Origin: Alistipes sp.
Lineage (GTDB): Bacteria; Bacteroidota; Bacteroidia; Bacteroidales; Rikenellaceae
DNA: 64,000 nt
Assembly (NCBI GenBank): GCA_017463615.1
Contig: JAFTOU010000027.1
Coordinates: 124,001 to 188,000, forward strand
Direction of reading: 5' to 3'
Part shown: one piece after another, positions 11,839 to 55,187 of the stretch
Numbering within the stretch: position 1 is the stretch's first letter
How the letters are laid out: each line of letters starts with the position of its first letter
Notes under the pieces: generated by a model
Told to the model about the DNA's origin: nothing
Database searches by the model: none
What the model saw: only the letters and a program-made list of their open reading frames with translations
Position numbers and translations under genes: made by a program

Positions 11839-11968
11839 AATTTCTCGTCAGAAGCCGTAAAATGTGGTGCATCGTAAAAGAAACCCCTTTGGGATAGTAC
11901 TAAAGCGTACAGCCCAAAGGGGTTTACTTTTAGGATGTGCCGCAGGTTGCGGCTTATCACGAGAAATT
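11839..11968 (+). ncRNA. Structured element family, copy 1 (130 nt)
   Basis: Outer stem AATTTCTCG with CGAGAAATT. Next comes a conserved internal loop, TCAG facing ATCA. A second stem pairs AAGCCGTAA with TTGCGGCTT. A third pairs TGTGGTGCATC with GATGTGCCGCA, using three G.T pairs on the plus strand. The central hairpin at 11881-11925 has an AAACCCCTTTGGG stem around GATAGTACTAAAGCGTAC. The 3' arm ends inside the stop codon of the C1 peptidase gene. Three other copies share the fold and loop bases but not the stem sequences. Being an RNA is inferred; a single-stranded DNA function is equally possible. Confidence 0.75.
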
Positions 11969-13139
11969 AAAGCTTTTTGAGTATATGCTTTGGCACAGCC
12001 TTCTTATTCACAAGGATTGACATGGTCTTATACTCCACGAATGGGCGGGAGAAGTAGTAGTAGCCGTCGTATGGAGGGCGGACACCCCAAGAGTTCTTGA
12101 CCTTGAAGAATGGGTTGCCATTCTGGTCGGTAGCGGTGCCGATGATTACCATACCGTGGTCGTCGGTGGTCTGGTAGTTATCGTAAGCCTGCTGGCGCAT
12201 CTGCTGAGTGATGGTCTTCTCCTTGATTGGCTTATCAAAGCGGTAGAGAGCCTCGTTGCGCTCCTGCTCGTTCATAGCGCCCCAGCGCTCAGCGTCGGTG
12301 CCGCTCATATTGTCGATATTATCCTCCGGAACGATAGCTATAGCCTTAGTGCGGCTAAAGCCCTTCTCTGAAACATCTGAAGCCCAGCCGATAGAGTAGT
12401 CGTTAGCCAGAGCGTTATCTACAACCTCCATAAGCTCCTCAAGAGGAACATTATATACGCTTGCCCACAACCAGTTATCTGGCACCTCAATAACGAAAGA
12501 GGTGTAGAATGGATGGTGAGTGAACGAGCTGAGGGAGATATAGTCGTTCATATCAATAGGCAGAGCCTCGGCAAATGACTGCGGAGTGTAGGTCTTGCCC
12601 TTATACTCAAAGCTCTCAGGCATCTTGCCGAAGTAGGCATCCAGAATACCGTTAAGACCTGCCTGCCAAGCGGTAGTGAGGGTCTTATTTGGGTTCTTGA
12701 TAATTGCATCTACATAGGCCTTAAGCACAGCGTCAATCTCGTTGAAGTGTGGAAGCTCGGTACCATAGTTGAGTCCCTCGTAGACCTCCTGAGGAACGAT
12801 GCCGTACTTCTTAATACCCTCGGTAACATCGTGGAAAGCACCACCTACGGCGAAGTTAAGCGCACCGTGCAGGCGGACATACTTTACAGCCTTCTCAAAG
12901 TATACATTGCGGACAATCCACATCTCCGACAGGTCCATCTCCTCGCCACCGGCGCGCATAATCTCGTTCTCAAGGTAAGAGAGAGCCGAGAAGCACCAGC
13001 AGGTACCGCTACGGAACTGATTTTTTACAGAGGTGGTCTTAACCAGCTTACCATCGGTAAACTGATAGCCCTCAGCCTTCTGAGCCATAACTGGCAGAGC
13101 GAGCATCAGGGCAACAAGTGCTACAACAAGTCTCTTCAT
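11967..13139 (-). CDS. Exported C1 family (bleomycin hydrolase/PepC-like) cysteine peptidase
   Basis: 390 residues with a signal peptide (MKRLVVALVALMLALPVMAQ). The papain-like triad is Cys47 (SGTCWCFSAL), His328 (DDHGMVIIG) and Asn349 (VKNSWG), in the arrangement of aminopeptidase C/bleomycin hydrolase. Unlike cytosolic PepC, this one is predicted to be secreted to the periplasm, which is typical for Bacteroidales homologues. It follows topA by 4 bp. The last stop-codon bases lie in the arm of structured element 1. Confidence 0.9.
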   Translation of the reverse strand: MKRLVVALVALMLALPVMAQKAEGYQFTDGKLVKTTSVKNQFRSGTCWCFSALSYLENEIMRAGGEEMDLSEMWIVRNVYFEKAVKYVRLHGALNFAVGGAFHDVTEGIKKYGIVPQEVYEGLNYGTELPHFNEIDAVLKAYVDAIIKNPNKTLTTAWQAGLNGILDAYFGKMPESFEYKGKTYTPQSFAEALPIDMNDYISLSSFTHHPFYTSFVIEVPDNWLWASVYNVPLEELMEVVDNALANDYSIGWASDVSEKGFSRTKAIAIVPEDNIDNMSGTDAERWGAMNEQERNEALYRFDKPIKEKTITQQMRQQAYDNYQTTDDHGMVIIGTATDQNGNPFFKVKNSWGVRPPYDGYYYFSRPFVEYKTMSILVNKKAVPKHILKKL

Positions 13140-13143
13140 AGTT

Positions 13144-15441
13144 CTATTTTTTTGATGAATTTACAATCTTCATACAGTCGTCAAAGCTCATAGTCTCCGG
13201 CTTTGAACCCTTTGGCAGGCGGTAGTTCTTGCCCTTATAGGCGATGTAGGCACCATAGCGGCCATTCTTGATAACCATACCCTTATCCTCGGCGAAGATT
13301 CTAAGCGGAGTGTTGGCTACGGCAGCCTGCTCCTTCTGATGCTTGAGGAGCTCCACAGAGCGCTCGTAGGATACAGTATATGGGTCGTCGGTCTTTGCCA
13401 GCGATGCGAAGGTCTTGCCGTGACGAACATAGCCACCGAACTTACCGATGCCGACAACCACATCCTCGCCCTCGTATACACCCACAACGCGAGGCAGAGC
13501 AAAGAGCTCCAAAGCCTGCTCCAGAGTGATAGACTCAATAAGCTGACCCTTCTTGAGCGATGCGTACTGCGGCTTCTCACCCTCGGCAGCCTCTATCTCT
13601 ACCATAGGACCATAGCGACCGATGCGAGCCTTGACAGTGTGTCCGCTCTTAGGGTCTACGCCTAAGATGCGAGCCTGCTGGTGTGAGGTTGGCTGGGTCT
13701 CTATAGCTGCATCTACCATCTGGTGGAAAGGTGTGTAGAAGGTGCTAATCATATCGTTCCACTGAAGCTCTCCGTCGGCGATGCGGTCAAACTCCTTCTC
13801 CACATTTGCCGTGAAGTTGTAGTCCATAATCATAGCGAACTGAGACTCCAGATAGTCGTTTACAACCATACCGATATCGGTTGGGCTGAGGCGGTTCTTC
13901 TCTGCGCCATAGTTCTCCGAAGAGCTCTTCTCTGTAATGTTGTTGCCACGCAAGGTAAGCGAAGTGTAGTTACGCTTCTGCGCAGGGCGGGAGCTCTTCT
14001 CCACATATCCGCGGGTGATGATTGTAGAGATTGTTGGCGCGTATGTTGATGGACGGCCGATACCCAGCTCCTCCAGACGCTTTACGAGCGAAGCCTCGTT
14101 ATAGCGCAGCGGTGGCTGAGTGAAACGCTCGGTAGCTACGATGGTGTGCGACTTTACCACCTCGCCCTCGTGGAGCATTGGCAGGGTCGCAGTATGCTCG
14201 CCATCGTGAGTCTCCTCGTCCACGCTCTCCGAGTAGAGGCGCATAAAGCCATCAAAACGCATAGTGTCGCCAGTGGCTACGAAGTGGTTAGGGTCGCCCG
14301 ACATCTCAATATTGATAGTTGTGCGGTCGATATCGGCAGCAACCATCTGCGATGCCACGGTGCGCTTCCAGATAAGCTCATAGAGGCGCTTCTCGGCAGC
14401 TGTACCGTCAATCTCGTGGCGGTTGATATAGGATGGACGGATAGCCTCGTGAGCCTCCTGAGCACCCTTACTGCTTGTGGTATAGTTGCGCGGATTGGAG
14501 TACTTAGCACCAAAGAGCGTGGTAATCTCCTCCTTACAAGCGTGTATAGCCAGCTGCGAGAGGTTTACCGAGTCGGTACGCATATAGGTGATAAGACCCT
14601 GCTCGTAGAGGCGCTGCGCCACAGACATAGTCTGCGATACGGACATACCGTACTTGCGGGCAGCCTCCTGCTGGAGCGTAGAGGTTGTAAATGGCGGTGC
14701 AGGATAGCGCTTGGTAGGCTTCACCTCGCTGTGAACAACGGTAAATGTTGCGCTCTTGCAACGCTCAAGCATCTCTAAGGCCTGCTCCTTGGTAGCAAAA
14801 CGCTCGGAGTACTCAGCCTTGAAGATTACCTTCTCCGTATCCTCCACAGAGTAGAACTGAGCAACCACGCGGTAGTAGCTGGTGGCATTGTGTGCGATAA
14901 TATCGCGCTCGCGCTCTACGATAAGTCGTACGGCAACACTCTGCACACGACCTGCCGAGAGTGCCGGCTTAACCTTCTTCCAGAGAATTGGCGAGAGCTC
15001 AAAACCTACGATACGGTCAAGCACACGGCGAGCCTGCTGGGCATTGACAAGGTTAAGGTCTACAGTTCGCGGATTCTCTATAGCGTGCAGAATGGCGTTC
15101 TTGGTAATCTCGTGGAACACGATACGCTTTGTGCGCTCAACAGGCAGACCCAGCACCTCGGTAAGGTGCCAAGCGATAGCCTCTCCCTCGCGGTCTTCAT
15201 CGGATGCGAGCCATACGGCATCAACCTTTGAAGCTAAGCGCGACAGCTCGTCCACAACCTTCTTCTTCTCTGACGAAATCTCGTAACAAGGGGCAAAGCC
15301 GTTGGCAATATCTACGCCCAGACCCTTCTTGGCGATGTCGCGGATATGGCCGAAACTTGACTTTACGATATAATCCTTGCCGAGAAATCTCTCTATAGTC
15401 TTCGCCTTGGCAGGCGACTCTACAATAACCAGATTTTGCAT
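13144..15441 (-). CDS. topA: DNA topoisomerase I
   Basis: 765 residues, type IA. The TOPRIM start is LVIVESPAKAKTIE (Glu8) with DEDREGEAIAWHL at 81-93; the active-site tyrosine is Tyr286 in LITYMRTDS. Instead of C-terminal zinc fingers it has three repeat modules of the topoisomerase C-terminal type, around IGRYGPMVE, IGKFGGYVRHGK and NGRYGAYIAYKGKNYRLPKG. It relaxes negative supercoils behind RNA polymerase. It is followed closely by the peptidase gene. Confidence 0.96.
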   Translation of the reverse strand: MQNLVIVESPAKAKTIERFLGKDYIVKSSFGHIRDIAKKGLGVDIANGFAPCYEISSEKKKVVDELSRLASKVDAVWLASDEDREGEAIAWHLTEVLGLPVERTKRIVFHEITKNAILHAIENPRTVDLNLVNAQQARRVLDRIVGFELSPILWKKVKPALSAGRVQSVAVRLIVERERDIIAHNATSYYRVVAQFYSVEDTEKVIFKAEYSERFATKEQALEMLERCKSATFTVVHSEVKPTKRYPAPPFTTSTLQQEAARKYGMSVSQTMSVAQRLYEQGLITYMRTDSVNLSQLAIHACKEEITTLFGAKYSNPRNYTTSSKGAQEAHEAIRPSYINRHEIDGTAAEKRLYELIWKRTVASQMVAADIDRTTINIEMSGDPNHFVATGDTMRFDGFMRLYSESVDEETHDGEHTATLPMLHEGEVVKSHTIVATERFTQPPLRYNEASLVKRLEELGIGRPSTYAPTISTIITRGYVEKSSRPAQKRNYTSLTLRGNNITEKSSSENYGAEKNRLSPTDIGMVVNDYLESQFAMIMDYNFTANVEKEFDRIADGELQWNDMISTFYTPFHQMVDAAIETQPTSHQQARILGVDPKSGHTVKARIGRYGPMVEIEAAEGEKPQYASLKKGQLIESITLEQALELFALPRVVGVYEGEDVVVGIGKFGGYVRHGKTFASLAKTDDPYTVSYERSVELLKHQKEQAAVANTPLRIFAEDKGMVIKNGRYGAYIAYKGKNYRLPKGSKPETMSFDDCMKIVNSSKK

Positions 15442-15461
15442 TATCTTCTATTTTTCTGTTT

Positions 15462-15508
15462 ACGCAACGAAACCTAAGCTAAAAACTTAGGTTTCAATCG
15501 TTTTGCGT
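15462..15508 (-). terminator. Stem-loop between the DUF4270 gene and topA
   Basis: GAAACCTAAG pairs with CTTAGGTTTC, and ACGCAA pairs with TTGCGT outside it. It lies 18 bp beyond the DUF4270 stop and 21 bp before topA, so it probably ends the glycogen synthase/DUF4270 transcript. A clean T-run is lacking. Confidence 0.55.
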
Positions 15509-15525
15509 TACTTACTGTTTTTCAA

Positions 15526-17295
15526 TTACTTAACCATTGTGTAGGTCATCTCCAGATGGATTGGCGACAACTCACTTGACGAACCCTGAATCTCTGTACG
15601 CAGCAGCGTGTATGGCGAGATTGCCTCAGGACCGAGGTAGATAGCTCGCGGAGTGAAGGTTTCGTCGTACTTATCCTTAAACTGCTCCACAGACTCTACA
15701 TCCAACGAGTTCACATAGTTATAAAGGCGCTGCATAAAGCCCGTAATATCCAACTCGTAGCAGCCACGGCTACGGTTCAGATAACCGCCGTATGCCAACT
15801 CTGTAGAGTATGCCACCTCGTACTCAGGGTCGTAGTCAGCAATGCAGTTGAGCTTGCTATAGCCGATATAAGAGCCCAAGCGGGTGATGCAGTTATCCAT
15901 CAGCGGAGTGAGCAGGTGTGCATTCTCAATATTCTTCTCCCAGTTGTAGTCCGCACCCTTAAGATAGAGGTAGAGGCGGCACTGGTTGATACCGATAGCG
16001 CGATACTTATCCTCCTTATTCTCAGGGTCAATATAGGATGCGTTCTTAAGCTCCATAAGGAACTCGTCGGTGAAGTATATCTCGGTAGTAATACCCGCAA
16101 AGCCCTCCACAAAGCAGGTGCTAACCTCGTCACGAGCGCTATTTGGCAGCTTAGCTCCCGACTCGTCGTAAGCGGCAAACTTGACATTCTCAAGCTGTGA
16201 GCCTGTAAAGTCGTGCTTGATGCTATTTACAGAGACATTCTTAACATCCGCAGGGCCATCGTAGTAGTTACCGTATGTATCGGTATAGCCATCCAGCGAG
16301 GAGTCGTAGAAGTAGTAGTTTGCACCGATAGTATCCTGAATAAGCGTAGGGTCCTTCGGATTACGATTTCTACCCTGCAACTGCAGACCCGAAGCGGTCA
16401 AGTCAAAGCTATAGAGTGCGCCCTGCTTACTCTTATCCACGCTCTCAAGCACCGGCTTGATATATACGCCGTGGAAACGAGAGAGCCACTTCTTCTCGCT
16501 GCTGTAGAGGCTATCCACATCCTTGGTATAACCATCCCAATCAGGATTGGTATCGTAGTCGGCAGGAATAAGCATCAGACGGCGAACAAAGTCCCAAGTC
16601 TGAGCTGAGAGCTTACCATCCTCGCCATATACCGGCGTAAGGTCAATAGTGGTTGTTGTAGGGCCCGTCTTCTCGCCATCTGGGAAGGTGAAGGTAAACA
16701 GAGGCTTATCCTCGTTGTACACCTCCGTCATCTTATCCCAGCAGTTGGAGTATGCCGCGGTATCTGCCGCATCGGCAACGCTACCGACAAGCGACTTCTT
16801 AAGCTCATAGAGCTCGTACTTCACTGGCGTAAGGGTATCTACACCGTAGTCGTTGATAGTAAGCACCAGCGAGAGGGTATCAAAGATTGGCTTGTAACCA
16901 AAACCTGTCTCCTCGTCCACACTATTCATAAAGATGATAGATGATGCCAGCGATGCTGCACGCATACCGAAGGTATCGCTATGCTCCACGCCCAAGTATC
17001 CATACGAAACATTGCTTGAGAGCAGCGAGTCGGTATGGTAGAGCGAGGTACGGAAGAACTTACCCTCGCGCTCGTCGTAGACACTCTTATCGTCACTACT
17101 TGCCGACGAGTTGAAGACCAGCACCTTGCCGCCCTTAAAGCGCAGGTGGCGCATCTCCATCTTCTGATGGTCCGGAATGATATCGTAACCAAGCTCGCTA
17201 TCTACATCTGCCGAACAGCCAACGGCAAAGAGCGCAACCACAGCCACAAGCAGTGGGCGCAGAGTAGAGAGCCCAAATTTAGAACAGTTCATCAT
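15526..17295 (-). CDS. DUF4270 lipoprotein
   Basis: About 589 residues from the ATG pair at 17295/17292; earlier in-frame starts lie inside the glycogen synthase gene. The signal ends in a lipobox, ALFAVGC, with Cys26 (counting from 17292) as lipidation site. The body has the DUF4270 features: ELGYDIIP near the N-terminus, repeated mentions of transported-type beta-rich segments, and the ending LRTEIQGSSSELSPIHLEMTY. It is an outer-membrane or periplasmic lipoprotein of unknown role. In many Bacteroidota this family directly follows the one-domain glycogen synthase, as here with a 14-17 bp overlap. Confidence 0.85.
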   Translation of the reverse strand: MMNCSKFGLSTLRPLLVAVVALFAVGCSADVDSELGYDIIPDHQKMEMRHLRFKGGKVLVFNSSASSDDKSVYDEREGKFFRTSLYHTDSLLSSNVSYGYLGVEHSDTFGMRAASLASSIIFMNSVDEETGFGYKPIFDTLSLVLTINDYGVDTLTPVKYELYELKKSLVGSVADAADTAAYSNCWDKMTEVYNEDKPLFTFTFPDGEKTGPTTTTIDLTPVYGEDGKLSAQTWDFVRRLMLIPADYDTNPDWDGYTKDVDSLYSSEKKWLSRFHGVYIKPVLESVDKSKQGALYSFDLTASGLQLQGRNRNPKDPTLIQDTIGANYYFYDSSLDGYTDTYGNYYDGPADVKNVSVNSIKHDFTGSQLENVKFAAYDESGAKLPNSARDEVSTCFVEGFAGITTEIYFTDEFLMELKNASYIDPENKEDKYRAIGINQCRLYLYLKGADYNWEKNIENAHLLTPLMDNCITRLGSYIGYSKLNCIADYDPEYEVAYSTELAYGGYLNRSRGCYELDITGFMQRLYNYVNSLDVESVEQFKDKYDETFTPRAIYLGPEAISPYTLLRTEIQGSSSELSPIHLEMTYTMVK

Positions 17296-18088: not shown

Positions 18089-18143
18089 AAAACTTATATT
18101 TTATAGAGGTCGTCGGGCATTAAAAAGCCGAGCAATCTCTCTG

Positions 18144-18151
18144 CAAAGTTA
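18144..18151 (-). promoter_or_regulatory. -7 box for glycogen synthase/DUF4270
   Basis: The minus strand reads TAACTTTG, 55 bp before the glycogen synthase ATG and just beyond the queA stop. A -33 TTTG at the right distance is not evident. Confidence 0.5.
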
Positions 18152-18162
18152 GCAAATTTTTT

Positions 18163-19212: not shown

Positions 19213-19255
19213 ATATTTTTACAAAAAAAGTATCAATGTTACTACGAATTTTTTG

Positions 19256-19969: not shown

Positions 19970-19975
19970 ACCTTA

Positions 19976-20818: not shown

Positions 20819-20829
20819 GATTTTTACTG

Positions 20830-20880: not shown

Positions 20881-21011
20881 AAATTTGTTGTCAGAGTGCG
20901 GCAGGTACGGCGCATCGTGCGAAATAGCAGTCGCGGATAGTACTAAAAAGGTACAGCCGCGACTGCTATTTAAGGGATGTGGCGTAGATGCCGCACTATC
21001 ACAACAAATTT
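20881..21011 (+). ncRNA. Structured element family, copy 2 (131 nt)
   Basis: Outer stem AAATTTGTTG with CAACAAATTT. The internal loop is TCAG facing ATCA, the second stem AGTGCGGCA with TGCCGCACT, and the third TACGGCGCATC with GATGTGGCGTA (one mismatch, one G.T). The central hairpin has stem AAATAGCAGTCGCGG around ATAGTACTAAAAAGGTACAG. Its 3' arm is coding sequence: it covers the last four codons of the hydrolase gene (20999-21011). Same length and loop bases as the other three copies. Confidence 0.75.
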
Positions 21012-22558
21012 TCCATTCGGAGGAGGGTACAAACAGAGTCGTATGTGCAATTTGCCCAGAAGGTTGGGGTGTAGTTGAGTCGGATGCGCCAGGTGGTTGG
21101 GATTTTGCCGGTGTTTACACACTGAACAACGGTGATGTTGTCAATGAGTGCTTTGGCTTTGGCGCGCATAAGCTCGTCCCCGGTGAGCTGGTAGAGGTCG
21201 AGCATTGCATTTGCGACATTGCAGGTGCTATTATCCACAGGCATCTGGTACTTATACTGCTCGTATACGCACGGAGTGCTATCGGTCTTGTAGCCACTCT
21301 CGTTCAGCGGCATATCCCAGTGAACAAACTGGTCCTCGCTAAAGCGGACAAGCTCGTAGGCGGTAGCCACCTCCGCCTCCGAAGCGCCACGGCAGAGCAG
21401 ATATGTAGCATAAGGGGCTGCTGTGCAGTTAGTTAGGTTTTCGTAAGGCTGCAGACCCTCCACATTTGTATCCTCAAACTGACCTGTCATATCAAAGCTC
21501 TCAAGGATATGGCGTGCCATCCACTGCTCACCACGCAAGCGGGCAGCGGCATACTCCGTCCTGCCATAGTCGCGCTCAAGGCGCAGGAAGTAGCGGAGCA
21601 GAGGGTGCAACATAGCCTTGACATCGTTCACGGGCTCGCCCGTAGCGAAGTCGTACTTGATATGCCATGAGCCATCCTCGTTCTGCAGGGTGAGGTAGGT
21701 ATTGGCGATACCCACCGCCTGCTCAAGATAGAGGTTGTCGCCCGTAGCGTCGTAGAGGTCAAGGTATGCCTCGCCTGCCGATGCAGCCTCCATAGCCATC
21801 GTGCGGCCCTGATTCCAGCTACGGCTTGAGTGTACCAAGTTTTTGTAGTATGTCGGCGGAAAGTATGCCAGTCGCTCGCCAGGCTTGCGGGCGTGGTCTA
21901 TAAGAAACTGCGCCGCATTGCGAGCAATAGATAGCGCCTCGTCACGATATTGCGGAGCGGTCTTAGCCAGCAGCGTCTCCACCTGCACCACCGCGCCGAT
22001 AATCTTGCACGGGTAGGTAAAGTGGGTGTAGCTCATATCTGGCTCGGTGCTATGCTTGAAGTTCTGCACCGCGGGCATGGTGTGCACATAGAGCATACCG
22101 AGGATAGCCGCCTCGCGGTAGCCACGCACAGCACCCGTATAGGGAGGGTTGAAGCCATAGTCGCGGAAGAAGCTGCGCTCGCCAGCCGTACCTACCGCAA
22201 CACCCTTACTATCAATACCTTCCACCTTCAGAGTAACATCCACACCCTGCGGAATGCTGTTCCATATCGGTGCGAGGCTCTGCTGTGGTGAGTCAGCCTT
22301 GAAGCTCCAGCTCTTGCCACACTCGCAGGTGGCGGTGTAGAGATAGCTCTCCGCCCCCTCAACCGCCTGAAAATCAAAGGCTGGGGCGTAGATAAACTTA
22401 CCTGCAAAGCCGTTCCAGAATGGGCGGTCGTCACTCCCTGGGTGCACAGGTGTAAGGTACTCGGCTGCTGCCAGCTCTGTAAGGCGCTGGTTTGCATCCT
22501 TAGGCGCACAAGCGACCACCGCACCCAGTAGCGCGATGGCACAAATAAACTTTTTCAT
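20999..22558 (-). CDS. Lipoprotein with alpha/alpha-barrel glycosidase-like domain
   Basis: 519 residues. The signal peptide ends in GAVVACAP with a lipobox Cys, so an exported lipoprotein is predicted. Residues about 40-140 look like an Ig-like accessory domain, and the rest is rich in helical hairpin repeats with aromatic and acidic pairs (SWNQGRTMAMEAASAGEAYL, NEDGSWHIKYDF, YLDLYDATGDNLYLEQA), as in alpha/alpha toroid sugar hydrolases, lyases or epimerases. I do not recognise the family, and no catalytic residues can be named. It ends a three-gene operon with a Gfo/Idh oxidoreductase and tatA, which suggests glycan breakdown. Confidence 0.6.
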   Translation of the reverse strand: MKKFICAIALLGAVVACAPKDANQRLTELAAAEYLTPVHPGSDDRPFWNGFAGKFIYAPAFDFQAVEGAESYLYTATCECGKSWSFKADSPQQSLAPIWNSIPQGVDVTLKVEGIDSKGVAVGTAGERSFFRDYGFNPPYTGAVRGYREAAILGMLYVHTMPAVQNFKHSTEPDMSYTHFTYPCKIIGAVVQVETLLAKTAPQYRDEALSIARNAAQFLIDHARKPGERLAYFPPTYYKNLVHSSRSWNQGRTMAMEAASAGEAYLDLYDATGDNLYLEQAVGIANTYLTLQNEDGSWHIKYDFATGEPVNDVKAMLHPLLRYFLRLERDYGRTEYAAARLRGEQWMARHILESFDMTGQFEDTNVEGLQPYENLTNCTAAPYATYLLCRGASEAEVATAYELVRFSEDQFVHWDMPLNESGYKTDSTPCVYEQYKYQMPVDNSTCNVANAMLDLYQLTGDELMRAKAKALIDNITVVQCVNTGKIPTTWRIRLNYTPTFWANCTYDSVCTLLRMENLL

Positions 22559-46308: not shown

Positions 46309-46434
46309 ATTTTAGCGTCAGAGTACGCCAGGTACGGTGCATCGTGCGAAATCTCCGGATGGGACATACTATGCGTATTTCCCATTCGGAGATTTAAGGG
46401 ATGTGCCGTAGATGGCGCACTATCACGCTAAAAT
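46309..46434 (+). ncRNA. Structured element family, copy 3 (126 nt)
   Basis: Outer stem ATTTTAGCG with CGCTAAAAT, loop TCAG facing ATCA, second stem AGTACGCCA with TGGCGCACT, third stem TACGGTGCATC with GATGTGCCGTA (two G.T pairs). The central hairpin has stem AAATCTCCGGATGGGA and tip ATAC/GTAT where other copies have GTAC/GTAC. The flank GACTGCACTGTC before it matches GACTGCACCGTC before copy 1. It ends on the first base of the receptor stop codon. Confidence 0.75.
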
Positions 46435-49322
46435 CAAAACAGAGAGTTTAGATGACGCTCCATCCGCTCAAAGAAACTCTTTGGGACGACGGAGGAGTTG
46501 GTGGTGAGGGACTTGGATGGGCGGAGGGTGTTGCCGGATGGGAAGGAGCGGATGTTGTAGGTAAACTTGAGCAGGAAGTAGCGGCCCATGGTGCTATTAT
46601 AGCGCACCTGCGAGTAGCCCGCCCAGACACCGCGAGCGAAGGAGGTATTTTGGTTGAGGATATCGTTCACACAGAACTCTATCTCACCCAGCTTGCGCAG
46701 CACCTTCTTACCGATAGAGGCGTTCCAGAGGATGAACGAGTCGCGGTAGTCATTGGTGATGCCGAGGTACTGAGTAAAGACGCCTGAGGTGGTAATGGTA
46801 AAGCCGAGTGGCAGCACGAACTTCATATTTGCCGTAGCGCGGTGGGTGAAGAACTCGTTATTGAGCACATCCTCGCCCGCGCGGTTATTGCTATACGAAC
46901 CACGCCAGCGGAGGGTAAAGTCCACATTCTCAGAGATATTACTGCCCAAAGTAAGGTTGGTATAGGCGGTAAAGTTATTCATCAGCTGCTCCACCTCGTT
47001 AAGGCTGATAGGCACATCGGAGTAGGTTGCACCCAGCTCAACATTGAGGTTTGAGCTGATAGGATTTATCGGGAAGCCGATGCTTGTGCGCCCCTCAAAG
47101 GAGCGGTAACCACTCAGGTTTACCGGCTGCGAGAGCTGCACAGGGTTATACTTCTTGCCATCCACCTCAATAGCCGGTGGCGAGTATACGATGCTCGTGC
47201 CGATATAGTCGGGCATAAGGGTCGCCTTAGCCATAACCATAAATGTTGTGCCGTGGCGCGAGGAGAGGTTTGTGTAGCGGACAAAGTAGTTATGCTCCGT
47301 ATAGGGTTTAAGGTTAGGATTTCCGCGGGTGAGATACTGCGAGTTGCTCACATCGTAGACATCTATCATCTGCCAGAGCGACGGAGCTTTGACCTCCGAA
47401 GTAGCACTCACGCGCAGGGTATTTTGCGCATTAAAGGCCCACTGCAGCGTGGCGTTATAGACCGGATGGTTGTAGGTACGAACTACACGCTCGCCCGTCC
47501 AGACATTATGGTTTTTCAGGCGCGAATGTTGATACATAGCACTGATAGAGAACCAGTTACGATTACGACCATAGCGATAGCCAACGCCCGCCTGATGGTA
47601 GACAAACGACCCCTCAAAGGATGATGACGAGCGGCGGTTTATCCTCGCCGTATCAATAACATAGTCGGCATCGGTGGCATAGGAGAATAGGTCGCGCGTG
47701 CGCATCTGCGCCTGCAGGCGATATGATATATTGAGCGTAGAGTGGCGACCCAATCGCTCGCGGAAGGTCGGCTGCAGGCGGTATGTGGTGGTGTGATTTT
47801 CGTTCACCTTACGGTTATAGGTGTAGGCGATAGTCGCCAAATTGGGGTCTTTTTTATTCGTCTTACCCGCGCCATTAGAGTAGTAGTCGCGGTCGGAGTC
47901 GGAGACAGAGTTGCTAACGCTTGCCACCATCAGCAGCGAGCGACCTTGACGCATAAAGCGGTAGGAGTACTGCGCATAGAGGCTATGCGAGCGACCACGA
48001 CTCCACCCCTCATTGCCACTCGGCATCCAGCGATAGCCAGACTCGCCCCAGCGCAGGGAGGTGGTATCTACGCGGTTGATAGAGCTATTAGGGGTATAGC
48101 TCACCGACGGAATGAGCACCAGCTTCTGACGCTTGGCGACCTTCCAGTCAAGCCTTCCGCGGAACCTAAGTGTGTGATTATTAGGGTTTGAGAACTGGTC
48201 GTAGTGGACAGTATCCTTCTTACTCACAGCAGGGTCGTACCAGCGGTCTATGGTATACTGATTCTTGGCATTGAGGTGGTTGTAGAAGATACTACCCTCA
48301 AACTTCGCGCGGCGACGACGACCCCAGCGGTCGGAGTAGTTGAGGGCGAAAATCTCAGCCGAAGCTACACCGCTCTGGTTATTGACCGAGAACTGACGCG
48401 AGCCCGTATTGCGGTTGGCAGAGCTGCGGATGCTCATCTCGTCCTCCGAGAGATTCTGCTTGTTGAGGTTATTGACCAGACCCGTAACGGTCAGGCGGCA
48501 GTCGTCATTAAAGAGATTGACACTTCCGCCAGCGGTATACTTATGTTTCATCGCTATGGCGGGGTCTGCATCTGGCTCATATCCATAGCCGATGTGCACC
48601 TTACCAAAGCGGCTGCGGTTGATACTACGACGAGTGATGATGTTGATAACCTTGCTGCCCTCGCCATCATCTACGCCCGTAATCTGCGCAGCCTCGGAGA
48701 GGCGATTGTAGACCTCAATATGCTCTACAGCCTGCGCAGGGATACTCTGCAGCACTTGAGCAACATTCCCACCGAAGAACTCGTTGCCATCAACATATAT
48801 CTGCTTAACCTCCTCGCCATGCGCCTCAACCTTACCGTCGGAGATAGTAATGCCCGGCATCTTGCGCAGCAGAGCCTCCACCTCGGCATCTACAGCAACC
48901 TTGAAAGAGTCGGCATTGTAGCGCAGCGTATCGCCCATAATCACCGTGCGTGTTGAGACCGCAGTCTTTACTACCGTCTCAATGCCTATCGCGCTGGCAA
49001 CTATCTGAATATCACCGATATTCTTCGGAAGTCCAGCCGTAGTGAAGGTGATTGTCTTATCGGCATAACCCACAAATGTCACCGTGCAGCTATACTCGCC
49101 TGCAGTGACATTCGGAATAGTGAAATAACCCCCATACTCGGTAGTGAAGTATCGCTTTGCATCTGGCGTACGCGCCGGGGCAATCTCCACAACAGCACCC
49201 GCAACGCCATCCAGCGTATCGCCATCCACTACCCTACCCGACACAGAGCCACGCCCCTGCGCCACAGCAAAGTGCATAGCAAGGGTCGCAAAGAGCAAGG
49301 TCAGAGCGGTACGAAGGTTCAT
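46434..49322 (-). CDS. Outer-membrane beta-barrel receptor (TonB-dependent type)
   Basis: 962 residues. A signal peptide (to about HFAVAQG) is followed by a carboxypeptidase-regulatory-like domain (GSVSGRVVDGDTLDGVAGAV, to about residue 110). Then comes a plug domain (PGITISDGKVEAHGEEVKQI and GGNVAQVLQSIPAQAVEHIE, both in part) and a long barrel rich in alternating aromatic strands. The type is the 'outer membrane beta-barrel family' without a SusD partner. Its ligand is unknown; proximity to an OhrR-like gene does not show co-regulation. Only repeats and structured element 3 lie downstream. Confidence 0.85.
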   Translation of the reverse strand: MNLRTALTLLFATLAMHFAVAQGRGSVSGRVVDGDTLDGVAGAVVEIAPARTPDAKRYFTTEYGGYFTIPNVTAGEYSCTVTFVGYADKTITFTTAGLPKNIGDIQIVASAIGIETVVKTAVSTRTVIMGDTLRYNADSFKVAVDAEVEALLRKMPGITISDGKVEAHGEEVKQIYVDGNEFFGGNVAQVLQSIPAQAVEHIEVYNRLSEAAQITGVDDGEGSKVINIITRRSINRSRFGKVHIGYGYEPDADPAIAMKHKYTAGGSVNLFNDDCRLTVTGLVNNLNKQNLSEDEMSIRSSANRNTGSRQFSVNNQSGVASAEIFALNYSDRWGRRRRAKFEGSIFYNHLNAKNQYTIDRWYDPAVSKKDTVHYDQFSNPNNHTLRFRGRLDWKVAKRQKLVLIPSVSYTPNSSINRVDTTSLRWGESGYRWMPSGNEGWSRGRSHSLYAQYSYRFMRQGRSLLMVASVSNSVSDSDRDYYSNGAGKTNKKDPNLATIAYTYNRKVNENHTTTYRLQPTFRERLGRHSTLNISYRLQAQMRTRDLFSYATDADYVIDTARINRRSSSSFEGSFVYHQAGVGYRYGRNRNWFSISAMYQHSRLKNHNVWTGERVVRTYNHPVYNATLQWAFNAQNTLRVSATSEVKAPSLWQMIDVYDVSNSQYLTRGNPNLKPYTEHNYFVRYTNLSSRHGTTFMVMAKATLMPDYIGTSIVYSPPAIEVDGKKYNPVQLSQPVNLSGYRSFEGRTSIGFPINPISSNLNVELGATYSDVPISLNEVEQLMNNFTAYTNLTLGSNISENVDFTLRWRGSYSNNRAGEDVLNNEFFTHRATANMKFVLPLGFTITTSGVFTQYLGITNDYRDSFILWNASIGKKVLRKLGEIEFCVNDILNQNTSFARGVWAGYSQVRYNSTMGRYFLLKFTYNIRSFPSGNTLRPSKSLTTNSSVVPKSFFERMERHLNSLF

Positions 49323-49403
49323 AGGTTTATTATAAGAGCTCTTTAAGCCCTAAAAGTTAAGAAGCTGTTTGAAATTTGTTTGCGAAATTATTTTAACAGC
49401 TTC

Positions 49404-49447
49404 TAAAAAAAGGGGCTGTCGCAGAACAGATGCTCACGACAACCCCT
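49404..49447 (-). terminator. Terminator of the fumarate reductase operon
   Basis: On the minus strand AGGGGTTGTCG pairs with CGACAGCCCCT, followed by T7. A second dyad, GAAGCTGTT with AACAGCTTC (49367-49403), lies just beyond. Confidence 0.88.
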
Positions 49448-49465
49448 CTGTATAGTGATTAGAGA

Positions 49466-50209
49466 CTAATCAGCAAGCTTTGCAGCAAGGAACTCGCGGT
49501 TAAGACGAGCGATATGCGCAATAGAGATACCCTTAGGGCACTCTGCCTGGCAAGCACCAGTGTTGGTACAGTTACCAAAACCGAGCTCATCCATCTTTGC
49601 AACCATCGCCTTAGCACGACGAGCACCCTCAACACGACCCTGAGGGAGCTTTGCAAGTGAAGATACGCGAGCTGCAACGAAGAGCATTGCAGAGCCGTTC
49701 TTACAAGTTGCAGCGCAAGCACCACAACCTACGCAAGCAGCAGCATCCATACTCTCCTCAGCATCTGCCTGAGGGATTGGAATAGCGTTACCATCAGGAA
49801 CAGAGTTAGTGCGAACAGATACATAACCACCAGCCTGAAGAATCTGGTCGTATGCGTTACGGTTTACAACAAGGTCGCGGATTACAGGGAACGCTGCAGA
49901 ACGCCAAGGCTCAATGGTGATAGTTGCACCATCTGCAAACTGACGCATATAGATCTGGCAGGTAGTTACAGCCTGTGATGGACCGTGTGCGTGACCGTTG
50001 ATGTGCAGTGAACACATACCGCAGATACCCTCGCGGCAGTCGTGGTCAAATGCTACTGGCTCCTCGCCCTTGTGAACAAGGTCATTATTGAGGATGTCAA
50101 GCATCTCAAGGAATGAGGTGTCAGACGAAATATCGGTTACCTTGTACTCCTTAAATTCGCCCTTGGAGTGAGCGTCTCTCTGACGCCATATTTTTAATGT
50201 GAAATTCAT
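49466..50209 (-). CDS. frdB: Fumarate reductase/succinate dehydrogenase iron-sulfur subunit
   Basis: 247 residues. The [2Fe-2S] ligands are in [20 protein letters not shown] and a following Cys (AVTTC). The [4Fe-4S] and [3Fe-4S] ligands are in [14 protein letters not shown] and [14 protein letters not shown]. It passes electrons between the flavoprotein and the haem subunit on the cytoplasmic side. It is third in the frdC-frdA-frdB order usual in Bacteroidota; fumarate reduction is the likely direction in an anaerobe. Confidence 0.95.
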
Positions 50210-50245
50210 AATTTCGTGATTATTAAAAGTTTAACGTCAAACAAA

Positions 50246-52192
50246 TTAATCTTTATAGTTACGCTGTGCACGGTGAGTGAACTCGTAGGTCAGATCCTCC
50301 TTAGTAAGCTCTGGAGCCTCGTCCATACCCTTGTACTCCCAAACTGCTGCGTAAGCGAACTCGTCGTCGTGACGGAGTGCCTCGCCCTCCTCAGTCTGGT
50401 GCTCAGAACGGAAGTGACCACCGCAAGACTCCTCACGGTTGAGTGCATCGCGAGCCATCAACTCACCAAGCTCAAGGAAGTCTGCAAGACGGAGTGCCTT
50501 CTCAAGCTCAACATTGAATGAGTCTGCTGTACCTACAACCTTAACATTCTTCCAGAACTCCTTACGAAGAGCTGCAATCTCTACGATAGCCTTCTCCAGA
50601 GACTCCTTTGTACGAGCCATACCAACATTGTCCCACATAATAAGACCCAGCTGACGGTGGATATCGTCTACTGAGCGAGCACCGTTGATGCTCAGGAGCT
50701 TCTCAATCTTAGCCTTAACAGCCTTCTCTGCCTCGTCAAATGCAGGGGTGTCGGTTGCAACCTTTGGAGCCTGAATCTTCTTTGACAGATAGTCGCCGAT
50801 AGTGTAAGGGAGCACGAAGTAACCATCAGCAAGACCCTGCATCAGCGCAGAAGCACCCAGACGGTTAGCACCGTGGTCAGAGAAGTTAGCCTCACCGATA
50901 GCATACAGACCTGGGATAGTGGTCATCAGGTTGTAGTCTACCCAGATACCACCCATTGTGTAGTGAACAGCTGGGAAGATCTGCATTGGCTCCTCGTATG
51001 GATTTACATCGGTAATCTCCTTATACATATCAAACAGGTTACCATAACGCTTCTCAATAACCTCCTTACCGTGAACAGCAATAGCGGTCTTGAAATCAAG
51101 GAATACAGCAAGACCAGTCTCGTTTACACCGTAGCCAGCGTCGCAACGCTCCTTAGCAGCGCGAGATGCAACATCACGAGGCACGAGGTTACCGAATGCA
51201 GGGTAACGACGCTCCAGATAGTAGTCGCGATCCTCCTCTGCAATCTGTGAAGGCTTGAGAGTACCCTTACGCAGTGCCTCAACATCCTCCAACTTCTTAG
51301 GAACCCAGATACGACCATCGTTACGCAGAGACTCTGACATCAGGGTCAGCTTAGACTGCTGTGTACCGTGTACAGGGATACATGTTGGGTGAATCTGAGT
51401 AAAGCAAGGGTTTGCAAAACCTGCACCCTTACGGTAGCACTGGAATGCAGCAGAACCGTTAGATGCCATAGCGTTGGTAGAGAGGAAGAATACGTTACCG
51501 TAACCACCAGTAGCGATAACTACTGCGTGAGCACCGTGACGCTCAATCTCACCAGTTACAAGGTTACGAGCGATGATACCGCGAGCCTCGCCATTCTCAA
51601 CAACGATGTCGAGCATCTCGTGACGGTTGTAAGATGTTACATGGCCTGTAGCAATCTCCTTATTGAGCGCTGCGTAAGCACCCAGAAGCAGCTGCTGACC
51701 GGTCTGACCACGAGCATAGAATGTACGAGATACCTGAGCACCACCGAATGAACGGTTAGCAAGCAGACCGCCGTACTCACGAGCAAAAGGAACACCCTGA
51801 GCTACGCACTGGTCAATGATGAGGTTTGAAACCTCTGCCAGACGGTATACATTAGCCTCACGAGCACGATAGTCACCACCCTTGATGGTATCGTAGAAGA
51901 GACGGTATACAGAGTCGTTATCGTTCTGATAGTTCTTAGCAGCATTGATACCACCCTGTGCAGCGATAGAGTGTGCACGACGAGGTGAGTCCTGAATGCA
52001 GAAGATCTTTACATTGTAGCCCAGCTCTGAAAGAGAAGCAGCAGCAGATGCACCACCCAGACCAGTACCTACAACGATGATGTCCAGCTTACGCTTATTT
52101 GCGGGGCTGACAACCTTGATAGCAGCCTTGTGATTGCTCCACTTCTGAGCCAACTCACCAGCTGGAATTTTGGAATCTAATTTGAATGCCAT
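50246..52192 (-). CDS. frdA: Fumarate reductase/succinate dehydrogenase flavoprotein subunit
   Basis: 648 residues. The dinucleotide fold is [19 protein letters not shown], the FAD-attachment region is [17 protein letters not shown], and HPTCIPVHG and the C-terminal helical domain ([16 protein letters not shown]) are present. The longer size (vs about 580) is typical for the type B enzymes of Bacteroidota. It reduces fumarate to succinate, the main fermentation sink of these bacteria. Confidence 0.96.
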
Positions 52193-52229
52193 ATATCTAT
52201 ACTTTATTATTTATTCTACAAATAATGGA

Positions 52230-52934
52230 TTAGCAGCAACCACCGCAGCAACCGCAAAGGCTGCGTACATAGAATACCACTACTACAGCAGCGAAGCCAA
52301 GGAAGATAAGGCTTGAGATGAGCTTTGCAATGCACTTAAGGCGTGGGAGCCAAGTAGCGTTAGCAAAACCTGCTGTCTGGAACATAGACCAAACACCGTG
52401 GTTGAGGTGGAACCACAGAGCAGCAAACCATACAAGGTAGAGAACTACATTGTACCACTTGCTGAAGGTGTACTGAATAAGCGCAGCACCGTCGGTTGGA
52501 GCAAGGCCCAGGTCGTTAGTGTGCTGACCCATAAGCTCAACAAGCATCATCTTTGACCAGAAGTGAGTAAGGTGGAGGAGCAGACCCAGCAGTACGATAA
52601 TACCCAGAACGAGCATATTCTTAGATGCCCAATCCACACCCTTCTCGGTTACAGTGACAGCATAACGCACATTACCGCGTGCCTTACGGTTCTGCCAAGT
52701 AAGGATAAATGCGTACACAAAGTGTACAAGCACACCAAGTGCCAATACTGCAGTACCTACAAGAGCGTACCAGTTAGCACCCAAAAATCCGCAAATCATA
52801 TTGTAGCCCTCAGCACTGATAAGTGCTACAACATTCATTGCCATGTGGAAGAGGAGGAACAGCACCAGGAAGCAACCCGAGATGCTCATCACCAACTTCC
52901 TTCCCAAAGAAGAATTAGTTAAAAAACAACCCAT
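52230..52934 (-). CDS. frdC: Fumarate reductase cytochrome b subunit with Cys-rich tail
   Basis: 234 residues with five membrane helices and His residues placed for two b-haems (LFHMAMNVVAL, VHFVYAFIL, HLTHFW, FHLNHGVWS), as in type B succinate:quinone reductases. It anchors FrdAB and reacts with menaquinol. The C-terminus is odd: after the last helix it ends SLCGCCGGCC, five cysteines in the last eight residues plus one before. Nothing in the known mechanism calls for this. Confidence 0.9.
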   Translation of the reverse strand: MGCFLTNSSLGRKLVMSISGCFLVLFLLFHMAMNVVALISAEGYNMICGFLGANWYALVGTAVLALGVLVHFVYAFILTWQNRKARGNVRYAVTVTEKGVDWASKNMLVLGIIVLLGLLLHLTHFWSKMMLVELMGQHTNDLGLAPTDGAALIQYTFSKWYNVVLYLVWFAALWFHLNHGVWSMFQTAGFANATWLPRLKCIAKLISSLIFLGFAAVVVVFYVRSLCGCCGGCC

Positions 52935-53005
52935 AATGTTTTGAAATAAAAATTAGTTATGTTTATTTTGTGAAAAATTTGTTGCACTTAGTATATAATA
53001 TCGTA

Positions 53006-53036
53006 CAAATATAGGCATTGTTTGTCAAATAACAAA
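53006..53036 (-). promoter_or_regulatory. Promoter of frdCAB
   Basis: TTTG (53033-53036) and TATATTTG (53006-53013) on the minus strand are 19 bp apart, a near-perfect pair. The leader to the frdC ATG is about 65 nt. Confidence 0.75.
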
Positions 53037-53058
53037 ACATTTTTACCACTTTTTGAGT

Positions 53059-53604
53059 ATGCTACCCCCAATAAAAGCTAAATCAGAGCTACGCAGGGCC
53101 GCGAAAGAGGCAGTAAAGAGTCTAAGCGCAGAGCAGAGGCAGAGCTCTTCTGCGCTGATTATCAAAAAGATTCTGGCTCTGGATATCATAAAGAGTGCCA
53201 GAACCGTCGCACTATACGCCTCTCTGCCTGATGAGGTGGCAACTGCCGAGGCTTTAGAGGCGCTCTCTACCCAAAAGTTGGTACTCCTGCCGCGTGTAGA
53301 GGGGGATGATATGGAGTTTTATCCCTACAACGCTGCCACACTTGAGCGCGGTGCGTATGGTATCTCCGAGCCGCAGGAGGGGTGTGCCGTTATGGCGGAG
53401 CAGATAGATGTAATTATCGTTCCGGGCGTGGTCTTTACCCTTACGGGCAAGCGCATAGGCAGGGGCAAGGGCTACTACGATAAGTATCTGAGCCGCAAGG
53501 GCTTCCGCGCCACGAAGGTGGGTGTCTGCTATGGCGTGCAGATTGCCGAGGATATAGATACGGAGCCGCACGATATTGTGATGGATTATGTTATTTGCGA
53601 CTAA
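53059..53604 (+). CDS. 5-formyltetrahydrofolate cyclo-ligase
   Basis: 181 residues from the ATG at 53059; a TTG two codons earlier is the alternative. KSELRRAAKEAVKSLS at the start, VALYASLPDEVAT, and the ATP/substrate motif RIGRGKGYYDKYLS identify the family. It converts 5-formyl-THF to 5,10-methenyl-THF. rmuC follows 38 bp later on the same strand. Confidence 0.93.
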   Translation: MLPPIKAKSELRRAAKEAVKSLSAEQRQSSSALIIKKILALDIIKSARTVALYASLPDEVATAEALEALSTQKLVLLPRVEGDDMEFYPYNAATLERGAYGISEPQEGCAVMAEQIDVIIVPGVVFTLTGKRIGRGKGYYDKYLSRKGFRATKVGVCYGVQIAEDIDTEPHDIVMDYVICD

Positions 53605-53642
53605 ATTTGTATATTTGTAGCGGGTTTATTTCAGACTTAGAT

Positions 53643-55025
53643 ATGGAGAGTGTTATTATACCTTTAGTAGCCCTATTTGTGGGCATTGTTGTAGGATTTA
53701 TTGCCGGCTATCTCTTTGGTAAGCGCGGAGTTACAGCGGCGGAGCAGCGCGTGGCGGAGCTCTCGGAGCAACTTTTAGAGCTCTCTGCTGCAAAGTCGGC
53801 TCTATCCAAGGAGGTGGAGATGCTGCAGCAACAGATTGTCACAGAGCAGCAGCGTGCCGAGGCGGAGATAAACCGCCAGAGCGAGGCGTTCCGCACACAG
53901 CTCTCGGAGCAGGAGCAGCGCTTCAAGGATGCAGATGCGGCGCGTCGTGCCGAGTTCAAGCAGCAGTTAGAGCAGCAGCTGGAGCTGGTAAAGTCGCAGC
54001 TTAAGCAGCAGACCGAGCAGAGCAACCGCGAGAGCATTACCGAGATTATGCGCCCATACCGCGAGCAGTTAGAGCAGCTCAAGCAGCAGAGCGTGGAGGA
54101 CCGTGCCACACTGCAGAACGAGATTAAGCGATTTGTGGAGACTGGTGGTCGCCTGACCCGCGAGGCAGACCGACTTGTCACCGCGCTGAGTGGCAGCGTC
54201 ACGATACAGGGAAATCTGGGCGAGAAGCTACTGCAAGACCTCCTCAGGGGCTCTGGTCTGGTTGAGGGCGTGCAGTACAAGTTGCAGCAGACCGTGCGCA
54301 ACGAGGATGGCACAACGGCAAAGAACAGCGGTGGCAAGAAGATGCGCCCCGATGCGGCACTTATCTACCCCGAGACCAACAGCATACTCTACATAGACTC
54401 CAAGTTCCAGCTCCCTGCAGAGCTTGACTTTGAGAATCTTGAGGCGGAGAATCAGCGCTCTGTGCTCAAGTCCTTTGCCGAGAAGATTACCGTTCAAGCA
54501 AAGTGCCTTGCCGACCGCAACTACGACCGCAGCAATAATGAGGGTTACATCCCACTGCCGTATGTGATTATGTTCGTGCCGAGCGAGGCTGCACTTACCG
54601 CCGTGACGAACTTTGACCGCACCCTGTGGCAGCGTATGTTCAACGACTATGGCGTATGCCTTGCCAGCGAGCGTAACCTGCTGGTACTGATAGAGATGGT
54701 GCGCTATATGTGGCAGCGCCAGACTACTATTGACAACTACGAGGATATTATCGCCAAGGCTGAGATTGTCCTTGACCGCGTGGTGGACTTTATGGCGGAG
54801 TTTAGCACCGTAGAGAGTGCCCTTGCAGGCGCTGTGGCGGCTACGGAGAGGATGCGCTCGCTCTCTGCCACAAATGGCAAATCTATTGAGGTCGCCGTGC
54901 GTAACCTCACCGCGCTGGGCATTAAGCCCCACAAGGTGACAAAGAAGGACCGCCCTGCCCTACTCAAGAGCATACTCCAAAAGGCAAACCTTGCAGAGGA
55001 GAGCGAGGCGGAGGCGGAGGAGTAA
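53643..55025 (+). CDS. rmuC: DNA recombination protein RmuC
   Basis: 460 residues from the ATG at 53643. An N-terminal membrane helix (VALFVGIVVGFIAGYLFG) is followed by a long Glu/Gln-rich coiled coil (about residues 25-155), then the conserved RmuC domain: GNLGEKLLQDLLRGSGL, MRPDAALIYPE, LYIDSKFQLP, YIPLPYVIMFVPSE. RmuC limits inversions at short inverted repeats. That link is of interest given the many inverted repeats in this window. Confidence 0.94.
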   Translation: MESVIIPLVALFVGIVVGFIAGYLFGKRGVTAAEQRVAELSEQLLELSAAKSALSKEVEMLQQQIVTEQQRAEAEINRQSEAFRTQLSEQEQRFKDADAARRAEFKQQLEQQLELVKSQLKQQTEQSNRESITEIMRPYREQLEQLKQQSVEDRATLQNEIKRFVETGGRLTREADRLVTALSGSVTIQGNLGEKLLQDLLRGSGLVEGVQYKLQQTVRNEDGTTAKNSGGKKMRPDAALIYPETNSILYIDSKFQLPAELDFENLEAENQRSVLKSFAEKITVQAKCLADRNYDRSNNEGYIPLPYVIMFVPSEAALTAVTNFDRTLWQRMFNDYGVCLASERNLLVLIEMVRYMWQRQTTIDNYEDIIAKAEIVLDRVVDFMAEFSTVESALAGAVAATERMRSLSATNGKSIEVAVRNLTALGIKPHKVTKKDRPALLKSILQKANLAEESEAEAEE

Positions 55026-55059
55026 ATAGTTTTTCGCACCACTCCCAATTGACACACCC

Positions 55060-55187
55060 TTTTGGCGTCAGAAGGGGTTAGATGCAACGCTCGGCGAAAA
55101 ATCCCAGCGATGGATAGTACTAAAGCGTACAGCCATTGCTGGGATTTTTCGTTAGCGGAAGCAGGTATGCCCCTTATCACGCCAAAA
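55060..55187 (+). ncRNA. Structured element family, copy 4 (128 nt)
   Basis: Outer stem TTTTGGCG with CGCCAAAA, loop TCAG facing ATCA, second stem AAGGGG with CCCCTT. The third stem is shorter (CGCT with AGCG, TGC with GCA). The central hairpin has stem AAAAATCCCAGCGATGG, with one G.T pair, around ATAGTACTAAAGCGTACAG. The second stem is fully different from copies 1-3, which is strong compensatory change. It ends 4 bp before the glgB stop codon. Confidence 0.75.

Follow-up and report, generated by a model that had tools for sequence, protein, structure and literature searches.

A dispersed palindromic element docked behind gene 3′ ends in Alistipes

A 64,000-nt stretch of an Alistipes sp. metagenome-assembled genome (MAG; contig JAFTOU010000027.1, positions 124,001 to 188,000 of the forward strand; hereafter the window) carries four copies of a palindromic element of about 127 nt that recurs throughout its genome. 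Most copies lie directly behind a stop codon, antisense to the gene that ends there, and nearly always on one strand of the contig. The unit, its dispersal, the strand that folds, the docking rule and the strand bias are all direct observations; on them we base the view, which we hold to be probable, that the elements are non-autonomous mobile palindromes targeted to the 3′ ends of transcription units and akin to repetitive extragenic palindromes (REPs) and enterobacterial repetitive intergenic consensus (ERIC) sequences. A first-pass annotation of the window had proposed the four places and a branched fold, and both were confirmed (Table 1).

Structure and copy number of the element

In all four window copies the plus strand is the better folder, at −79.8, −78.3, −73.3 and −73.2 kcal/mol against −66, −68.3, −67.7 and −64.6 kcal/mol for the minus strand, and none of 200 shuffles per copy folded as well as the plus strand. 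A covariance model built from seven copies (the window's four and three from loci L001, L003 and L008) found no fifth copy in the window at E up to 1, besides the same four on the opposite strand. In a structural alignment of 128 rows fitted to the model, one of them a window copy on the wrong strand, 94.6% of cells were paired and 33 of 47 pairs had changes on both sides, covariation counts that are inflated by kinship among the copies. The covariation score was 0.535, compared with 0.036–0.087 when the 3′ partners were slid by 1 to 3 columns, and none of 500 shuffles attained any of the five structure measures. The two-sided change in the tip stem of copy 3 (ATAC/GTAT), which the first-pass annotation had picked out, is real.

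With the wrong-strand row dropped, the plus strand has 5,090 Watson–Crick, 522 G·T, 62 A·C, 262 other and 33 gapped cells. As a G·T on the plus strand is an A·C on the minus strand, it is the plus strand whose ability to fold has been preserved. The alignment favours RNA pairing rules on this strand, but folding done independently of it points to the same strand in 4/4 window copies. Selection on structure, already suspected from the four copies, is thus strongly supported, and it acts on one strand, the plus strand. The internal loop first written as TCAG/ATCA reads genome-wide mostly as TCA(G/A) opposite (A/T)TCA, in which T–A and A–T can pair. Our reading of the alignment suggests that the constant internal features are a C·C mismatch plus either a G·A mismatch or an A–T pair. 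The outer stem usually reads TTTTNNCG/CGNNAAAA, although its middle bases vary.

A covariance-model search of the genome and its relatives, which had been proposed along with the fold, returned at least 143 copies in the 2.38-Mb genome of the window (146 matches, less a palindrome that was read twice and two 37-nt fragments at contig ends), a lower bound in that 150 of 661 first-look candidates were scored. Of 61 related genomes, the model also matched 23 of the 37 that belong to the genus and none of the 24 from other families. The exact hairpin tip, GGATAGTAC..GTACAGCC, was present in 52 of 101 genus genomes at 0 to 77 copies each, and a reversed control pattern had no match in any of the 101. 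Chance palindromes are ruled out by the covariation and by this control.

No known RNA family was recognized, as the first-pass annotation had held: Rfam 15 gave no gathering-score match in the window besides two tRNAs elsewhere, a lax Rfam search of copy 1 gave only chance-level matches, and ten loci scanned yielded no Rfam match at the second-type or foreign palindromes described below. Its suggestion of a small RNA found no support. A small RNA gene with its own promoter is rejected, because the 60 nt left of the element hold no conserved position beyond CCA at −3 to −1; the gene on the left runs in either direction.

Docking, strand bias and dispersal

We analysed the flanks of 139 of the 143 copies, with genes taken as open reading frames (ORFs) called by a simple script and directions given in element orientation. 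The gene on the right was on the minus strand in 119 copies and on the plus strand in 19, with no gene in one, while the left gene was on the minus strand in 69, on the plus strand in 66 and missing in 4. The stop codon of the right gene fell between −30 and +40 nt of the element end in 107/139; the largest distance class was exactly 0 (n = 34), and in 16 copies the element's own TCA supplied the stop codon. Neighbours were arranged in tandem in 67 copies (58 with both genes antisense to the element and 9 with both sense), convergently in 57 and divergently in 10, with one neighbour missing in 5. Among the remaining 32 copies, some are separated from the stop codon by another element, and some sit next to a hairpin that by its letters resembles a terminator. 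One copy abuts a tRNA 3′ end with no gap (L108), and another lies near the end of an rRNA operon, 30 nt from 5S (L135). When 20 abutted genes were drawn at random from the 107, no mobile-element family was found among their matches, and 4 had no match. In the window, all four right ends overlap, touch or sit at most 4 nt from stop codons of minus-strand genes, and an internal TCA of copy 2 is the TGA stop codon (20999–21001) of the minus-strand gene at 20999–22558.

The same arrangement holds in other Alistipes/Rikenellaceae MAGs. Among the matches listed, these held 103 tips in 91 loci. Removal of duplicates and of tips with too little flank left 79, and setting aside 8 spanned by an ORF left 71, to which the following counts apply. 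The right gene was on the minus strand in 68/71, and the left gene was on the plus strand in 45 and on the minus strand in 26. The distance from tip to stop codon was 45–80 nt in 57/71 and 61–65 nt in 42/71. In low-copy related genomes the element adjoins 5S rRNA in two of five loci scanned (L052 and L053, which are near-identical to each other).

On contigs with two or more copies, 133 of 138 copies were on the contig's majority strand. The other genes in the flanks were split 177 to 123 by strand (0.59; overlapping stretches may count a gene twice), and those of the window itself 32 to 14. The probability of at least 133/138 is 1.6e-24 at a gene bias of 0.59 and 2.6e-15 at 0.70; the strand bias of the element far exceeds that of the genes. 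Strand coherence in four further genomes was 24/26, 25/25, 11/14 and 28/31 among the matches listed. Two of the five odd-strand copies, in L134 and L015, follow the usual pattern and have the end of an antisense gene against them. A third (C7:122302) is separated from the next antisense ORF by 235 nt, and a fourth is on a contig with one copy per strand; the fifth is taken up with the points against our reading.

GC skew, with gene direction separated out, was −0.064 in element orientation (95% interval −0.077 to −0.051) and −0.059 at third codon positions. By the usual rule the C-rich strand is the leading-strand template; the folded strand is C-rich and would therefore be that template, with the abutted gene running with the fork. 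This placement of the folded strand is likely, although not proven. With rpoB as a marker of replication direction, agreement was found in G122 (1/1), G063 (8/10 tips in the fetched stretches of the contig) and G016 (1/1), disagreement in G005 (1) and a split of 1 to 1 in G082; in G027 both elements lie beyond a gene-strand switch and fit the local skew. A second marker sought, rplB, was not found in this MAG.

The unit is the palindrome itself, and near-identical copies of it occur in unrelated surroundings. Thirty pairs of copies within the genome are at least 93% identical, and in 27 of them both 100-nt flanks fall below 50% identity. In 26 such pairs, agreement dropped nearly to background at the first base outside the element, to 0.62 on the left and 0.54 on the right, compared with backgrounds of 0.50 and 0.48. 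Copy 2 had no blastn match in phage or plasmid records. A single viral contig (IMG/VR) has the tip pattern (L264:5377–5402), and this may be chance.

A second element type (outer stem ATTTTAG../..TAAAAT, same tip class) lies between the stop codon and the first-type element at L229, L191 and L263, and the flank of L010, in the window's own genome, has the same order of stop codon, second-type and first-type element. The inner, second-type element would be the newer of the two. Remnants with only the left 20–25 nt of the element (TTTTNNCGTCAGAA...) lie just outside intact copies (for example at L146:1420–1500 and L021:1400–1500), as if older copies had lost their right part on the arrival of a newer one. 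About 27/139 copies, judged by 8-mers within 160 nt, have a member of another dispersed family of repeats (ATTAAGGGTTACTAATGGTCGC...ACCCTTAATA) ahead of them (for example in the left flanks of L013, L016 and L033 in G000), and a third family (GGCTATTAGC-type runs) is also common in left flanks, so that the intergenic DNA is a mosaic of stacked repeats. Five tight tandem pairs occur among the copy coordinates of the window's genome. In a related genome, the stop codon of an S24-type repressor gene is followed at once by five tandem 109-nt units with the conserved tip (L265:1937–2450, G027 C16), and a gene for a phage-like terminase is close by. Behind a 422-aa gene whose letters resemble those of phosphoglycerate kinase stand three repeats of a unit of about 260 nt (L266:1380–2140, G101 C37), which consists of one usual-tip copy and one long hairpin with another tip.

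Table 1. Element copies in the window and the genes that they abut
Feature	Position in window	Strand	Details
Element copy 1	11839..11968	+	116.5 bits (cmsearch); fold z −15.3
Element copy 2	20881..21011	+	140.7 bits (cmsearch); fold z −13.0
Element copy 3, tip variant GGGACATAC/GTATTTCCC	46309..46434	+	111.6 bits (cmsearch); fold z −10.0
Element copy 4	55060..55187	+	104.9 bits (cmsearch); fold z −10.1
Conserved hairpin tip of copy 2, GGATAGTAC-loop-GTACAGCC	20935..20958	+	part common to several phyla
Gene abutted by copy 1, peptidase C1-like	11967..13139	−	Pfam PF03051; stop codon overlapped by copy 1
Gene abutted by copy 2	20999..22558	−	no Pfam match
Gene abutted by copy 3, outer-membrane beta-barrel	46434..49322	−	Pfam PF14905; TGA stop touched by copy 3
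Gene abutted by copy 4, CBM48/alpha-amylase	55192..57255	−	Pfam PF02922, PF02806, PF00128; copy 4 ends 4 nt before stop

The window also holds minus-strand genes for tRNA-Val and tRNA-Asn at 7938–8181.

The tip in other phyla and the search for a mover

A scan of named genomes for the tip returned at least 107 stretches among the matches listed, 91 from Alistipes/Rikenellaceae and 16 from others. About 60 chance matches to the pattern are expected over the whole collection, and single foreign matches therefore prove nothing. Five loci that belong to other organisms (L240, L244, L245, L249 and L256) were kept out of the genus tip count. Among single matches, one in a Bacteroidia MAG (L240) has a well-paired palindrome around the tip, one in a Bacteroidales MAG (L245) has a weaker palindrome and one in a Clostridiales MAG (L249) has no such palindrome.

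In eight foreign genomes, titled Desulfovibrio, Humidesulfovibrio, Desulfovibrionales, Deltaproteobacteria, Proteobacteria, Spirochaetaceae, Sphaerochaeta and Chitinophagaceae, a 15-base form of the tip occurred 41 times, compared with 1 for the control and 0.34 expected, and seven of the eight, all of other phyla or families, held three or more copies. The palindrome type in the Proteobacteria-titled host is the same as in Desulfovibrionales. Of 33 distinct palindromes folded from these hosts, 31 measure 88–170 nt, a range whose upper end is set by the folded stretch and which has no shuffle control. A minus-strand gene stops within 30 nt of the right end in 13/33, and a plus-strand gene ends within 30 nt of the left end in 6/33. 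Phosphoglycerate kinase is among the abutted genes both in a Desulfovibrio genome and in the Alistipes genome. The spread is patchy: the tip occurs in Desulfovibrionales, spirochaetes and a Chitinophagaceae MAG, yet in none of 394 other Bacteroidota genomes sampled, where the exact form alone, and no other tip variant, was sought.

The mover search covered the Y1_Tnp (PF01797) and RVT_1 (PF00078) families; tyrosine recombinases, DDE transposases and other HUH enzymes were not searched. Y1_Tnp was found in two of the eight foreign hosts and, by the same search, in 19 of the 24 genomes of other families of the order. Among ten proteins encoded beside arrays or odd-strand copies, which include one phage-type terminase and one S24-type repressor, none matched a transposase or recombinase and two had no match. 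No mover of the Y1 type, which includes the REP-associated tyrosine transposases (RAYTs), was found in the genus (Y1_Tnp in 0/50 genomes), nor was a reverse transcriptase found in every high-copy genome; the counts are weighed below.

Mobile element or 3′-end signal

If the elements are mobile palindromes, as we think probable, a putative mover would recognize the folded single strand by its conserved tip and fixed mismatches. The folded strand would be joined to a target exposed at the 3′ end of a transcription unit that is co-directional with the fork, and later arrivals at that 3′ end would displace the older copies outward. Candidate targets are an R-loop end, the 3′ end of a transcript that serves again as primer at a co-directional collision (an event described in passages of PMC8464059) or single-stranded DNA near the fork. 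An RNA version of this scheme would amount to a bacterial SINE-like retroposon (SINE, short interspersed nuclear element), and a DNA version to a single-strand transposon whose polarity is unusual. The hairpin, flanked by A and T tracts, may also act secondarily on the 3′ ends of transcripts.

A bolder form of the proposal, which we regard as doubtful, makes the elements a distinct class that chooses its target through the transcript 3′ end. In this form a folded RNA or DNA strand would be joined antisense to the 3′ ends of mRNAs, tRNAs or rRNA operons, or to a leading strand with its primer there, and almost exclusively at sites of co-directional transcription and replication, by an enzyme that is neither Y1 nor known SINE-type machinery.

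Several observations weigh against a mobile element of this kind. No target-site duplication was found at the edges, where two-base matches occurred in 8/139 copies compared with 8.7 in shuffles; one base inward they were in excess (64/139 versus 35.7), which may stem from the outer pair of the palindrome. No pair of occupied and empty sites with both flanks alignable was found among the relatives compared: even where the gene was 87–95% identical, the intergenic DNA had diverged, so that no insertion was observed as such. In 39 of the 71 comparisons made, the orthologous gene end of another species had a tip at the expected distance, which would also fit a kept function; this figure is inflated, as the loci were chosen for holding elements, and at least one of the 32 tip-less relatives (L229) holds a second-type element. 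One odd-strand copy (C45:10088) has a plus-strand gene on its right and departs from the docking rule, and the docking asymmetry is weaker in the foreign hosts. The polarity rests on GC skew, with which the rpoB marker agrees mostly but not wholly. As to enzymes, Y1_Tnp was absent from all 50 genus genomes searched (37 of 37, and 13 of 13 further high-copy ones), MAGs being incomplete, and RVT_1 was present in 8/21 high-copy and 7/21 tip-free genomes without correlation with copy number.

The alternative that survives best, although we consider it unlikely, is a 3′-end signal under selection, that is, a portable terminator or 3′-end stabilizer for the abutted gene, whose location would reflect function and not targeting. 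The first-pass annotation had offered a 3′-end processing signal, and the part of that idea that stands is the position: right ends abut stop codons, a tRNA 3′ end and, by reading, terminators. Several of the 32 tip-less relatives have, also by reading, a hairpin and then T's at the same spot, the shared gene ends just described point the same way, and the central stem is preceded by A4 and followed by T4 in 83/139 copies. The part that fails is the strand. The best-folding strand, on which structural selection acts, runs antisense to the abutted gene; the element therefore cannot simply be that gene's own 3′-untranslated-region signal. A strict terminator test (short perfect stem plus T-run) was passed by only 6/139 copies on the gene-sense strand. 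Genes transcribed head-on to the fork would need a terminator equally, yet nearly all copies keep to one strand, and copies displaced by about 127 nt behind another copy persist. A kept 3′-end signal thus accounts for the location, not for the strand bias or the foldability of the antisense strand.

Quite unlikely, in our estimate, is a bacterial SINE-like retroposon. Its plus-strand RNA would be copied by a reverse transcriptase, and a 3′ end, either of a transcript or of the nascent leading strand, would act as primer for the cDNA or as the point to which it is joined. Such joining would yield in one stroke the antisense placement, the exact 3′ ends (tRNA included) and the co-directional genes, and a plus-strand fold rich in G·U suits RNA, although DNA is also compatible. 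The distribution of reverse transcriptases tells against it, with RVT_1 absent from 13/21 high-copy genomes (incomplete MAGs) and present in a third of the tip-free ones, and the left 60 nt contain no conserved promoter for a plus-strand RNA. By reading, the remnants in left flanks keep the left end, whereas truncation of cDNA would keep the right end.

We give little credence to an atypical REP family moved by a Y1 (TnpA-REP) transposase that acts from elsewhere or has since been lost. Placement is shared, in that passages of PMC3733652 put REPs at most 20 bp from ORF 3′ ends, between tandem or convergent genes, and allow that they may supply stop codons; passages of PMC6006769 list for Bacteroidetes a TnpA-REP subclass, 2.6, with atypical flanking structures and copies elsewhere in the genome. 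Like REPs and bacterial interspersed mosaic elements (BIMEs) with their RAYTs, the elements are many dispersed intergenic palindromes, directly behind stop codons and between tandem or convergent genes; they can supply the stop codon, and a folded single strand is probably the active form. They differ in measuring 127 nt (to about 170 nt in other phyla), not 20–40, in having a preferred orientation to the abutted gene and to replication, and in their fixed internal mismatches and conserved tip. The GTAG/CGTC foot pattern is missing: no GTAG foot is present, and by reading the string CGTC, which lies inside the palindrome, is confined to copies with CG at the end of the outer stem, just before TCA, the others having TTGTCA or GTGTCA. 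Y1_Tnp, found by the same search in most of the genomes of other families, was absent from the genus genomes and from 6/8 foreign hosts. As neither a Y1 enzyme nor a tagged palindrome of 20–40 bp was found, we do not file the element as a REP, although it may work like one.

Elements of the IS200/IS605 type (IS608, ISDra2) likewise have a folded strand that is recognized and a replication-strand bias. Their active folded strand is on the lagging-strand template, as is usual for Y1 elements, whereas here the usual reading of GC skew would put the folded strand on the leading-strand template; no Y1_Tnp was found in the genus genomes. Of the three natures offered by the first-pass annotation, a REP- or MITE-like (miniature inverted-repeat transposable element) palindrome mobilized as a folded single strand remains the best fit, with the reservations just set out: no Y1/RAYT enzyme in the 50 genus genomes, no duplication at the edges and a replication polarity that is probably the opposite.

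ERIC/RU-1 sequences and other MITE-like palindromes are imperfect palindromes for which no mover is known. ERIC/RU-1 shares with our element the size class (127-bp enterobacterial repeats), the intergenic placement and the character of a small mobile sequence. In this comparison by description it differs in its hosts, and our element in its structural covariation with fixed mismatches, its strand bias and its docking at stop codons.

Integron attC sites are imperfect palindromes with constant unpaired bases, variable stems and one active strand, with an inverse core, RYYYAAC, and a core, GTTRRRY, in the outer stem. That our elements are sites of the attC kind, on which a tyrosine recombinase of the integron type would act in their folded single-stranded form, is very improbable despite the shared long imperfect palindromes, constant unpaired bases and variable stems, since the copies are mostly single, dispersed over the chromosome behind unrelated, ordinary genes without cassette arrays, and the letters of the outer stem vary with no fixed attC core (judged by eye against the consensus).

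Small palindromic repeats are common in bacterial genomes, and of the kinds known to us only REPs have a plausible mover. We know of no earlier element tied to encounters of transcription and replication, and in the bolder form of the proposal this one would be the first. In the literature searched we found no description of this repeat family, on which we base no firm claim of absence from print, and passages of PMC8266576 mention neither 'lagging' nor 'replication fork'. The conserved tip in unrelated bacteria, together with docking on one strand, points to an unrecognized kind of small mobile element. A tip common to three phyla, a defined folded strand, docking at stop codons and a one-sided relation to replication are clues to its mover. 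Should the docking rule prove mechanistic, mobile DNA would be tied to the ends of transcripts and to transcription–replication encounters; at the least, the elements are a large repeat family, unnamed as far as we found, which gives shape to the 3′ ends of many genes in a genus common in the gut.

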